Below are positions 28,236 through 30,944 of a DNA stretch of 64,000 bases, piece by piece. Below the pieces are notes generated by a model. It was given only the letters and a program-made list of their open reading frames with translations, was not told where the DNA came from and searched no databases. This DNA comes from Planctomycetota bacterium (GTDB lineage: Bacteria > Planctomycetota > SZUA-567), in contig JAGUZQ010000057.1 in the NCBI GenBank assembly GCA_020060765.1, positions 1 through 64,000 on the forward strand, read 5' to 3'. A program made the translations under genes and the position numbers. The first letter of the stretch is position 1, and each line of letters starts with the position of its first letter.

Positions 28236-28598
28236 TTACATTATGGGATTGATTACTTCAAGTTCCTCAATCCAAGAAAAATCGACCTCATTGACCGTAA
28301 TCAGGCTCAGTCCGTGGAGTATCGCTGTGGCGGCGATAATTGCATCGCCCAGAGACATTTTTTTGCGCTTGCGCAGTACAACTGCTTTTCCGACAACCTC
28401 GGCGGTTACGGGAATCTCTGTGACAATATCCAAAAGCTGCGTCAGTTCTGCCTCGTCTTCGGCAGTAAGTTTGGGATAACCTAAAACTTCAATGCGAGTG
28501 ACTGATGAGAAAGCCGATTCGCCCGATTGAAAATAACCGAGCAGATGGTCATGATTGCCGGAGCCGGCCATGATGAATATATTGCTGTCAAGAAGCAT
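28236..28598 (-). CDS. VapC-type PIN-domain ribonuclease toxin
   Basis: 120 residues from ATG 28598. PIN acidic residues are present: D4 in MLLDSNIFI, E in VTRIEVLGYP, D in SLGDAIIAA and D in TVNEVDFSW. PIN toxins cleave RNA with Mg2+. It overlaps the upstream antitoxin gene by 11 nt, the standard arrangement of a co-translated toxin-antitoxin pair. A longer frame to 28691 exists but lies inside the antitoxin gene and lacks a ribosome-binding site. Confidence 0.88.
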   Translation of the reverse strand: MLLDSNIFIMAGSGNHDHLLGYFQSGESAFSSVTRIEVLGYPKLTAEDEAELTQLLDIVTEIPVTAEVVGKAVVLRKRKKMSLGDAIIAATAILHGLSLITVNEVDFSWIEELEVINPIM

Positions 28599-28860
28599 GA
28601 TCCCGTCCCGGCAAAGCCCGATCCTGGCGGATTTCCCGCTGCCACTGCGCCGGATCGGGAATCGCTTTTGCGAGTGTTCCCCTTTGGGCAATCTTGCGAA
28701 GAATCTCGACAGCCTTGTCGCCGTCGTATCGCTTTTGGTGGGGCACGCGAAGATAGATTACCGCCTGCACTTCGCCAACGGGAATATCTTGCGGCACTTC
28801 CAGATCCATATGCACCCGATGATCCGGGGAAATGGTGACGTTTTTGTAGATAGCTGTCAT
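28588..28860 (-). CDS. Antitoxin partner of the VapC-type toxin
   Basis: 90 residues. The N-terminal half is beta-strand-rich (YKNVTISPDHRVHMDLEVPQ) and the C-terminal half is charged and Arg-rich, as in antitoxins that dimerise through one half and wrap the toxin with the other. It has no close match to a named VapB class, so function is assigned from the 11-nt overlap with the toxin. GAAGAGGTACC precedes the ATG. Confidence 0.75.
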   Translation of the reverse strand: MTAIYKNVTISPDHRVHMDLEVPQDIPVGEVQAVIYLRVPHQKRYDGDKAVEILRKIAQRGTLAKAIPDPAQWQREIRQDRALPGRDHAS

Positions 28861-28956
28861 ATCGGTACCTCTTCTACAGTCAAATGTAAGTATATAGCAT
28901 TACCCACATCTGAACAAGAGTAATATGATGCGCGAAGATTTTCCGGCTCCTAGCCG

Positions 28957-29298
28957 TTACGCCCGGACATAATCCGCCAGGTCGCAGATGTCGACGGTTT
29001 TCGGAAAAACCTCCTCCGCGCCGGAGGAAAGCGCGCGCTCGCGGATTACCGGCTCGTCGGCAGTGAGCATGAACACGCGCGGGCAATATTCGCGCAGTTC
29101 CGCGATAAGGTCGACGCCGTAGCCGTCGGGCAGGACGTTATCCAGCAGCACTACGTCGAAATCGATTTGACGTGCAAACTCCATCGCCTCGGCGCAGGTG
29201 GCGGCTTCGAAAATTCTTGTTCCCGGTTCGTGCAAAACAATTCGCACAAGTCCGCGAAATTCGACGTCGTCGTCTACCAGCAGGATTTTCCTTCCCAT
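28957..29298 (-). CDS. Stand-alone response-regulator receiver protein
   Basis: 113 residues from ATG 29298 (AAAGGGATAAC upstream). It is a receiver domain only: acidic pair in LLVDDDVEF, phospho-acceptor D53 (VVLLDNVLPDGYG), T in MLTADEP and K in EVFPKT. With no output domain it must act through protein contact, like CheY or Spo0F. No kinase is adjacent. Its upstream region holds the structured RNA at 29374-29505. Confidence 0.9.
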   Translation of the reverse strand: MGRKILLVDDDVEFRGLVRIVLHEPGTRIFEAATCAEAMEFARQIDFDVVLLDNVLPDGYGVDLIAELREYCPRVFMLTADEPVIRERALSSGAEEVFPKTVDICDLADYVRA

Positions 29299-29373
29299 GT
29301 TATCCCTTTCCGATGCGGCTCGGAAACGGCGGGAACAGGGATGAAAATAAAGGGAGCGCCGTTCAGCTGCGCT

Positions 29374-29505
29374 GCGAACCAGGGCTACCACACCCCACAA
29401 AGCACGCAACATGAAACGACGCTCCCACCATAAGATGGGACACGGGCTTCATGCTTGCTCGTTGCTTTGTATCGGCGAAAGCCGATATATGGTAGTTTGG
29501 TTCGC
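29374..29505 (+). ncRNA. Rod-shaped structured RNA, candidate 6S RNA
   Basis: Nested complementary segments: GCGAACCA (29374-29381)/TGGTTCGC (29498-29505); CTACCA (29385-29390)/TGGTAG (29490-29495); ACAAAGCA (29397-29404)/TGCTTTGT (29463-29470); GCAACATGAA (29406-29415)/TTCATG-c-TTGC (29448-29458); TCCCA/TGGGA at the tip (29423-29440). Opposite the single-stranded CACCCC (29391-29396), the 3' side carries a small hairpin ATCGGC-GAAA-GCCGAT (29471-29486). The GAAA tetraloop favours plus-strand transcription. A closing stem, then a central bubble with a 3'-side hairpin, then a long apical stem is the 6S RNA plan. No clear promoter is visible and the sequence is not matched to a family. Confidence 0.5.
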
Positions 29506-29714
29506 AAACGCCCAAGCCTGATTTTAATACCGGTTGCCCGGCGGTGAAATTACGTCAGAGTTTCTCTATACGCGACCCTCCGCAAAAATCTGCCGAAGAT
29601 ATTTTGTCTGCCGTTGATAGTTTATGCAAGAGAAACTTTCGGCGGGTTGGATGAGTTGATGATGAATTTGCGGTAGGGGGCGGAGACTTTTTTATTTTTG
29701 CTAATAGCAGCCTG
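29506..29714. other. Intergenic stretch without a gene
   Basis: No coding frame is supported. It contains one inverted repeat, AGTTTCTCT (29559-29567)/AGAGAAACT (29629-29637), with a 61-nt unpaired-looking interior. Confidence 0.5.
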
Positions 29715-29750
29715 AAAAAAATTCGCCCACCCTTGAACGGGTGGGCGAAT
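29715..29750 (-). terminator. Rho-independent terminator of the YjzC-like gene
   Basis: Perfect 12-bp stem ATTCGCCCACCC (29721-29732)/GGGTGGGCGAAT (29739-29750) with a 6-nt loop. On the minus strand it is followed by TTTTTTTC. Confidence 0.93.
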
Positions 29751-29766
29751 ACCACTTACTTGCGGC

Positions 29767-29955
29767 CTAGGGACGTCCCGACTTATTCTTGGTACGATCT
29801 ACAATTTTATAGCTCATACCAGAGGTCGGGGAGGGGGGAAGAGGCTCACCCTTTGTGACAGTAACTTCCTTGCCCAAACCACCTCGTGGGCCGATCTGTT
29901 GGTACTGTCCAGACCAGGGAGCTTTTTCGCCCGGGCGAAATTCTTTCGAAGCCAT
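29767..29955 (-). CDS. YjzC-like small protein
   Basis: 62 residues from ATG 29955 with AGGAG 6 nt upstream; a TTG at 29961 overlaps that site. The N-terminal part KEFRPGEKAPWSGQYQQIGP matches the FRPGxKAPxxGxY opening of the YjzC family of small proteins known from Bacillus and many other bacteria. Function unknown. The C-terminal half is basic (YKIVDRTKNKSGRP). It is a single-gene unit with its own terminator, divergent from the small RNA. Confidence 0.82.
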   Translation of the reverse strand: MASKEFRPGEKAPWSGQYQQIGPRGGLGKEVTVTKGEPLPPSPTSGMSYKIVDRTKNKSGRP

Positions 29956-29978
29956 GCTCAACTCCTATTTTTGAACCC

Positions 29979-30007
29979 TTGACACCGTTGAGCCATTTCG
30001 GTATAAA
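29979..30007 (+). promoter_or_regulatory. Consensus sigma-70 promoter of small RNA
   Basis: TTGACA (29979-29984), exactly 17 nt, TATAAA (30002-30007). Transcription should begin near 30014. No open reading frame with a ribosome-binding site follows. Confidence 0.85.
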
Positions 30008-30013
30008 TTCACG

Positions 30014-30099
30014 GGTCACCGGCTCAGCCCGGCCTCCCGTTAGATGGTTCTACAATCTATGGGAGATTAAATGCCAGCAGCCCTACTGCTGGCATTTTT
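30014..30099 (+). ncRNA. Small non-coding RNA of about 86 nt
   Basis: It is bounded by a consensus promoter and an intrinsic terminator. The body has a GC-rich 5' segment (CGGG and CCCG able to pair), a hairpin CTCCC (30034-30038)-gt-TAGAT (30041-30045)/ATCTA (30055-30059)-t-GGGAG (30061-30065), and the terminator stem. No tRNA, SRP, RNase P or tmRNA features, and no start codon with a ribosome-binding site. Family not recognised; likely a trans-acting regulator or housekeeping small RNA. Confidence 0.75.
30069..30099 (+). terminator. Rho-independent terminator of small RNA
   Basis: AAATGCCAGCAG (30069-30080), CCCTA loop, CTGCTGGCATTT (30086-30097): a perfect 12-bp stem running into TTTTT. 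Confidence 0.95.
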
Positions 30100-30344
30100 C
30101 AATTGCAATTATTATACCAAGCCACGAAAAAAGTTGATTTGGCAGATAACGCCTTATTTGAGAATACTATCTATGATAAGTGATTTCGATAGTAAAATAC
30201 TATCAGGACAATGTGTGTCATTTTGTTTCCGGCGTCTATCGGTAAATATGTCAATATGACAAAGGGATTCAATATCTAAAGACTTACCGCACATTTTGTG
30301 TTTTAACTATAATTGAAGCAAAGGTATATGTGTCCTTTCCCGCG
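30100..30344. other. AT-rich intergenic stretch, no gene
   Basis: No supported coding frame. It holds two direct copies of ATACTATC separated by about 40 nt, with an opposed GATAGTA between them (around 30157-30206). Base composition is far lower in GC than in the surrounding genes. Confidence 0.5.
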
Positions 30345-30467
30345 CGGGTGGCGCGACCGTGCGCCAGCACAAGAGGAGCGGCCTGTGCGTGACTGAAGGG
30401 CAGGTATACGATTAAGGGAGAACCTCTTGCGGCTTCGTCGCGCAGACGTAAACGTCTGCGCCACCCG
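30345..30467. repeat. Inverted-repeat element with internal palindrome
   Basis: CGGGTGGCGC (30345-30354) and GCGCCACCCG (30458-30467) are perfect 10-bp terminal inverted repeats around 103 nt. The right end also holds a perfect 9-bp palindrome, GCGCAGACG-TAAA-CGTCTGCGC (30440-30461). It has no coding capacity and lies just downstream of the broken XRE gene. Resembles a small dispersed element; only one copy is seen in the window. Confidence 0.6.
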
Positions 30468-30492
30468 TGAGATATTTTGCACCGCCTGTATT

Positions 30493-30839
30493 TCACTTTG
30501 CGGCAAGAAGCTTCCCCTTGCCGGTGCAGCCGATGTGAATGCCGAAAAGTCCTAACGCGCGCACCAGCAAATCAATGCTGACAGAGGCATCCCCCTTTTC
30601 CATCATCGCCAGCCTCGACTGACTGGTTTTGAGCATGGCAGCCAGTTTCTTCTGCGTAAGGTGATGCTCTTTTCGCGCCTGCTCCAGGCGATCAGCCAGT
30701 TTCAGCTTTGTCTCGACATACGCCGCATCTGCTGCCGACAGTTCCAGAAACGCGGTCGCGTCGCCAACCCGCCTCCCGCCGCCTCCAGCTTTTTCTTCTT
30801 GTCTGCGTTCGTGCTAATGCTCCTGTTTGACTTCACCAT
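30493..30839 (-). pseudogene. Frameshifted XRE-family helix-turn-helix regulator (antitoxin-like)
   Basis: Starting at ATG 30839, the frame reads MVKSNRSISTNADKKKKLEA, AAG, and then is lost: the expected GGA-TGG-CGG reads GGA-GGC-GGG near 30770. Restoring one T gives a continuous 115-residue protein through a canonical helix-turn-helix (LTQKKLAAMLKTSQSRLAMM, EKGDASVS) ending at the TGA at 30493-30495. The whole length is 347 nt, one short of a multiple of three. It matches the XRE proteins that usually accompany RelE/HigB toxins, but no toxin gene is adjacent. A real mutation or a sequencing error are both possible. Confidence 0.8.
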
Positions 30840-30875
30840 GCAACCAAACCAGTGGCTTATCATCCATAATTATAG

Positions 30876-30897
30876 ATTATATCATATCTGATATAAT
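30876..30897. promoter_or_regulatory. Palindromic operator/promoter of the XRE gene
   Basis: ATTATATCA (30876-30884)-TATC-TGATATAAT (30889-30897): a perfect 9-bp inverted repeat containing TATAAT-like hexamers on both strands, about 37 nt upstream of the XRE start. It fits autoregulation by an XRE dimer. Confidence 0.65.
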
Positions 30898-30944
30898 GTC
30901 AGGCTGGTTGTTGCTTTTGTTTTTTGGTGGGGGTGGATCATTTT

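Follow-up and report, generated by a model that had tools for sequence, protein, structure and literature searches.

A rod-shaped RNA in front of a receiver gene of a Planctomycetota bacterium seems to belong to an unnamed family of RNA switches

Among the described systems closest to the RNA considered here, leader-peptide attenuators, such as that of trp, are built on mutually exclusive pairings of the leader (1:2 and 3:4 versus 2:3), and these, like the resistance or toxin genes under uORF control, combine an upstream Shine-Dalgarno-like element with the control of accessory genes. One example of the latter, toiL of TopAI-YjhQ, acts via the ribosome-binding site and Rho, not via an intrinsic terminator (PMC12121999). 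In plasmid copy control by antisense RNA, attenuation of repR of the mobile element pIP501 by RNAIII is established, an alternative pairing of the leader deciding on premature termination (PMC4981023). The riboswitch and attenuator families of Rfam 15 carry an expression platform composed of a terminator and an antiterminator and, finally, 6S RNA (RF00013) forms a long rod with a side hairpin.

The locus described here lies within a window of 64,000 nucleotides (contig JAGUZQ010000057.1, positions 1 to 64,000) and seems to hold one copy of an unnamed RNA-switch family that would stop or allow transcription of the adjacent downstream gene, often a mobile-element, DNA-modification or nuclease gene. 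It shares traits with each of the systems above. In comparison with leader-peptide attenuators, however, no short reading frame was seen to recur consistently between its GGAG element and strand L, and its rod is larger and conserved as an RNA family. In contrast to pIP501 repR, the genes downstream encode receivers, methyltransferases and nucleases, and none of the Rfam 15 families, riboswitches and attenuators included, matches any of the rod copies searched above its gathering cut-off.

A preliminary description of 29374-29505 had seen a nested rod with a central bubble and, on its 3' side, a GAAA-capped hairpin, and had proposed a diverged 6S RNA transcribed from the plus strand or, failing that, some unnamed structured RNA preceding a receiver gene. 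The rod is indeed present and far exceeds chance; its folding energy is -56.5 kcal/mol (z -5.9) for the plus strand and -66.9 kcal/mol (z -7.3) for the minus strand, with none of 200 shuffles equally stable on either. The side hairpin exists as well, but on the minus strand, which is the selected one, it sits 5' of the junction, so that the arrangement of 6S RNA, a central bubble with a hairpin on the 3' side, is not found there. Nor is the GAAA loop conserved, since the copy on contig C91 of the same genome has an AAA triloop (plus strand) in its place. The hairpin (P3) is missing altogether from L160, L162, L171, L181, L176 and other copies that retain P2, the junction and the switch strands, and is thus dispensable. 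The conserved element reaches from the GGAGG at about 29583 to the T-run at 29344 and is therefore longer than the interval first outlined; the minus-strand RNA containing the rod is predicted to measure about 200-280 nt.

The Rfam covariance models give 6S RNA no footing at this locus. A search of the whole window with Rfam 15 returned a tRNA as the sole match and no family at the rod; between 29200 and 29800 there was no meaningful match even at E<=10, and RF00013, the model that the preliminary description had suggested running here, did not reach its gathering score anywhere in the window and had no match at E<=10 in that interval. The true 6S RNA of this genome lies elsewhere (G000:C38:36412-36592), as a single RF00013 match of 86.9 bits, above the cut-off, and the same family was matched in 14 of 25 relatives searched (E<=0.001). 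The rod resembles 6S RNA in its shape, its side hairpin and its similar length (about 180 nt), but differs from it in its strand, in the position of the hairpin, in ending on an intrinsic terminator tail and in occurring in several copies, three of them tied to receiver genes, in a genome with a separate 6S RNA. A diverged 6S RNA was consequently rejected, and has next to no likelihood.

More copies of the rod were found in the same genome. A DNA search returned a weak second match on contig C91, which proved to be another rod built in the same way and standing immediately before a receiver gene whose product is 48% identical to that of the window, and a search with the receiver led to a third receiver gene, on contig C22, again with a rod upstream. 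The fallback of the preliminary description has held, and each of the three rods stands directly in front of a receiver gene. A minus-strand covariance model built from the window copy only matches the C91 rod at E=4e-21 and the C22 rod at 5e-13. When the three copies are aligned, 94% of the cells pair and both bases change in 25 of the 54 pairs, compared with 8.9 pairs in shuffles and 2-7 pairs in slid versions. The three-copy model recovered five further copies (E 2e-24 to 8e-5), three belonging to a different genus of the same family and two to different families within the class, and a model of all eight, run on 392 genomes of the phylum and then again on the class, brought the total to 27. 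The RNA family thus comprises at least 27 copies: that of the window and 26 others, all from the same phylum and two from the same genome (E 7e-34 to 3e-3). Their spread is patchy, with copies in 15 of the 392 genomes, under strict filters by which weak copies are missed, and in 1 of 41 genomes of one well-sampled family. In the full alignment (29 rows, two of them weak extra matches), 91.8% of the cells pair, and 50 of the 51 rod pairs change on both sides with pairing kept. The covariation score of 0.706 compares with 0.189 for shuffled alignments and about 0.1 for slid structures; the alignment, having been fitted to the structure, is biased in its favour, yet the difference is very large. 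The covariation in relatives on which the preliminary description had made its proposal depend is strongly present in both alignments. A family that covaries to this extent in many families of one phylum has no Rfam entry.

Simpler searches yielded less. A DNA similarity search of 60 relatives gave nothing credible outside the genome itself, and a single-sequence model found no copy in 98 relatives; since at first look this model missed even the third copy on C22, the latter absence means little. The motif GGCTTGGGCGYTYGCN{5,9}AAAC retrieved 75 stretches from IMG/VR and GTDB contigs, none containing a rod at a convincing E, and is thus a property of a few copies; two further viral patterns had no match, and no relevant repeats occur within 28800-30600. 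No description of the motif was found in the literature, where the microbiome RNA catalogue of PMC8040213 was not covered motif by motif. A second weak match of 22.8 bits beside the L176 copy, on the opposite strand (L176:1114-1270, minus), is possibly a degenerate copy or a chance match.

The strand of the RNA can be read from its pairs. An A-C mismatch on the modelled strand (minus in the window) would be a G-U pair on the opposite one, and the 27 copies hold 85 G-U pairs against 22 A-C mismatches, the balance favouring the modelled strand in 23 copies and the opposite strand in 2, which fixes the strand as minus. The minus strand also folds better than the plus in both the window copy and the C91 copy, and the T-run and the downstream gene both lie on it. 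Thus, a plus-strand RNA, which the preliminary description had preferred, was ruled out, and the strand evidence and the gene position point to what it had named as speaking against 6S RNA, namely a minus-strand leader of the receiver gene. The same counts bear on whether the element might instead be a folded DNA site, such as a recombination site or a palindromic mobile repeat. Integrases or recombinases do adjoin several copies, but the excess of G-U pairs indicates selection on the RNA of one strand, the T-run and the alternative pairings are sensible in RNA only, and the position relative to the gene is fixed, which makes a DNA site highly improbable. The features of the window copy are collected in Table 1.

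Table 1. Features of the window copy, with coordinates in the window.
Feature	Position	Strand	Remarks
Candidate σ70 promoter	29601-29629	-	-35 TTGCAT (29624-29629), 17 nt spacer, -10 CAAAAT (29601-29606)
GGAG(G), conserved	29573-29583	-	Shine-Dalgarno-like; 5' leader
Counterpart of the conserved GACA(T/A) motif	29550-29558	-	CTGACGTAA; variant GACG in this copy
Hairpin P0	29528-29544	-	CCGG-GCAA-CCGG; just 5' of strand L
Strand L	29503-29522	-	ATCAGGCTTGGGCGTTTGCG; complementary to strand A
Rod	29374-29505	-	P1, P2, side hairpin P3 and long stem A:B; from minus-strand fold and covariation
P1 of rod	29498-29505/29374-29381	-	
P2 of rod	29490-29495/29385-29390	-	
P3, side hairpin of rod	29471-29486	-	
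Strand A	29434-29470	-	5' side of long stem; partner B (rod) or L
Strand B, core	29414-29426	-	GGGAGCGTCGTTT; partner A (rod) or tail C
Alternative hairpin H	29381-29396	-	GGGGTGTGGTAGCCCT; 3' strand of P2 as loop side
Strand C	29352-29364	-	GAACGGCGCTCCC; complementary to B over 13 bp
T-run	29344-29351	-	TTTATTTT; directly after C; intrinsic-terminator tail
Receiver gene, putatively controlled	28957-29298	-	Stand-alone response-regulator receiver, 113 aa; 45 nt after T-run; PF00072, E=4e-17

The strands of the rod have further partners. Strand L, immediately 5' of the rod and treated as unpaired in the model, pairs with strand A of its own copy at a mean of -18.0 kcal/mol, against -11.2 kcal/mol crosswise (0 of 10,000 permutations; z<-1.5 in 24 of 27 copies). 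In each copy, 10-15 bp can form between tail C and the apical rod strand B, at a mean of -22.4 kcal/mol within copies and -15.7 kcal/mol crosswise (0 of 10,000 permutations; z<-1.5 in 26 of 27). The covariance model used to find the copies does not include tail C, and neither L:A nor B:C is among its pairs, so that neither feature was selected by the search. The flanks of hairpin H, which excludes P2, covary as well (-8.5 kcal/mol within copies, -5.6 crosswise; 0 of 10,000 permutations). A T-run follows C in nearly all copies, with U in 5.7 of the next 8 bases on average over the 27. A, B and the 3' strand of P2 thus have two conserved, mutually exclusive partners each, and for A and B this is the anatomy of a transcription attenuator: a putative terminator hairpin (B:C) with a U-run stands upstream of a gene on the same strand, and an antiterminator (A:B) excludes it by sharing strand B, both pairings being conserved.

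The best explanation, to which we give a probability of roughly 0.78, is that the rod RNA acts in cis as a transcription attenuator in the 5' leader of the receiver gene. In the antiterminator fold (P1, P2, P3 and A:B), presumably the ON state, the terminator would be blocked and the polymerase would read into the gene. In the terminator fold (L:A, H and B:C), L, being made first, would capture A and leave B free, whereupon the B:C hairpin and its U's would end transcription about 45 nt before the start codon. Several features count against this mechanism, among them the loop of about 50 nt enclosed by the B:C hairpin, which is longer than in textbook terminators, the lack of one function common to the downstream genes, and the weak promoter of the window copy (z about 0). 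The rod is also the more stable fold in almost every copy, by about 7-24 kcal/mol (-87.7 against -80.7 kcal/mol in the window; equal in L178), so that it would take kinetic control or a factor to terminate transcription. Folded only as far as the end of A, with B yet to be made, the RNA has L:A in its minimum free energy structure in 4 of the 5 copies shown, although the full RNA prefers the rod, which again makes the decision dependent on kinetics or a factor.

The element could also be a stand-alone small RNA acting in trans and ending at the T-run, with the genes behind it as mere neighbours. Promoter-like boxes and the T-run bracket the RNA in a way that would suit this, the downstream genes differ, and the copies are as patchy as accessory genes are. 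However, a B strand that switches between A and C answers the need of a conditional terminator and would be useless to a plain small RNA, and about 23 of the 27 copies have a frame on the same strand that starts within about 200 nt, by a count made by eye on mechanical ORFs. A small RNA of this kind is therefore rather unlikely.

The leader should have its own promoter, because the preceding minus-strand gene, which encodes a YjzC-like small protein (29767-29961; PF14168), has its own intrinsic terminator at 29715-29750. The candidate promoter lies downstream of this terminator, and those of several relatives are clear (e.g., TTGCCA-N17-CATAAT, TTGCCC-N17-TAGAAT and TTGACC-N17-TATAAT). Of the 27 copies, 21 carry GGAG at a distance of 20-100 nt upstream of the core and 18 carry GACA[TA] within the final 45 nt ahead of it, against expectations of 7.0 and 2.5, respectively. 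Hairpin P0 is present in many relatives, not all, and shows compensatory changes among the copies of this genome (CCGG/CCGG, GCCGG/CCGGC and GCTGA/TCAGC). The P0/TAAAAT block had been considered as a promoter; this was dropped, as the third copy shows P0 to be a covarying hairpin and does not keep TAAAAT. Inspection of the leaders across the family revealed no common start codon and frame, the starts and frames of mini-ORFs differing even between close copies.

The likeliest sensor parts are the GGAG/GACA leader and the ACCGCCA/UUGGCGG helix, both conserved. As to what they would sense, a factor on the ACCGCCA/UUGGCGG region would be our first guess, followed by ribosome loading at GGAG and then by an antisense RNA. 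Ribosome loading would suit a broader idea, in which the RNA is a transferable switch that senses the translation state or infection and serves unrelated accessory genes across the phylum as a shared "alarm" leader: once ribosomes stopped loading on the GGAG leader, L would be kept from A, the rod would form, and mobile-element, restriction or nuclease genes would be switched on. This is a speculative extension and an unlikely one. Regulation by a trans antisense RNA, which would bind A or L and force B:C, would be a sub-case of attenuation. One genome does hold several near-complementary copies, and the UUGG loop of hairpin H has the YUNR form, which is used by fast-pairing antisense loops. 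The attenuation of pIP501 repR by RNAIII would be a precedent (PMC4981023), but the window-only model scores just 14.5 bits on the opposite strand and the downstream genes are not replication genes, so that an antisense partner is unlikely as well.

The genes downstream share no single function, and the signal is therefore not readable from them. Receivers follow six copies, namely that of the window, those on C91 and C22, which precede paralogues of the window's receiver, and three in a related genome. In the C91 copy and the three of the related genome (G000:C91, G001:C73, C216 and C44; L003 and L163-L165), a ribbon-helix-helix gene stands behind that of the receiver, and next come an HTH gene and a gene for a tyrosine integrase, except on one contig, which stops short of them; this recurrent cassette looks like an integrative element of its own. 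Elsewhere, the RNA precedes genes for two HARE-HTH proteins, a RAMA-domain protein, a type IIG-like restriction-methyltransferase, an EcoRI-type methyltransferase, a PLD (phospholipase-D) nuclease, a GYF_2 membrane protein and proteins without assignment; an HTH protein downstream of one copy has a weak Pfam match, below the cut-off, and with PADLOC only the methyltransferases gave strong matches. One elaborate two-state leader would thus be coupled to many unrelated accessory genes, from receivers with integrase operons to an EcoRI-type methyltransferase, a type IIG-like enzyme, HARE-HTH proteins and a PLD nuclease, and its signal, once found, would reveal how such genes stay silent and when they are released.

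Some observations concern the surroundings of individual copies. Two copies of one genome (G019) lie upstream of a HARE-HTH protein (L166) and of the RAMA-domain protein (L179), respectively, and a large restriction-enzyme-like gene is found near L166. At L047:7670-10331, the C22 copy is flanked on one side by prophage-like genes (tape measure, SNase) and on the other by a divergent sensor histidine kinase with a σ54-type regulator. Behind the receiver gene of the window, 28236-28860 on the minus strand encodes a protein of 90 aa that no Pfam family clearly matches and another with a PIN domain (PF01850, E=9e-13); the two possibly form a toxin-antitoxin pair carried on the receiver transcript. 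On the other side, the region 30000-30900, in which no convincing gene is seen, contains two strong hairpins, at 30069-30097 (with T's after it on the plus strand) and at 30437-30464.
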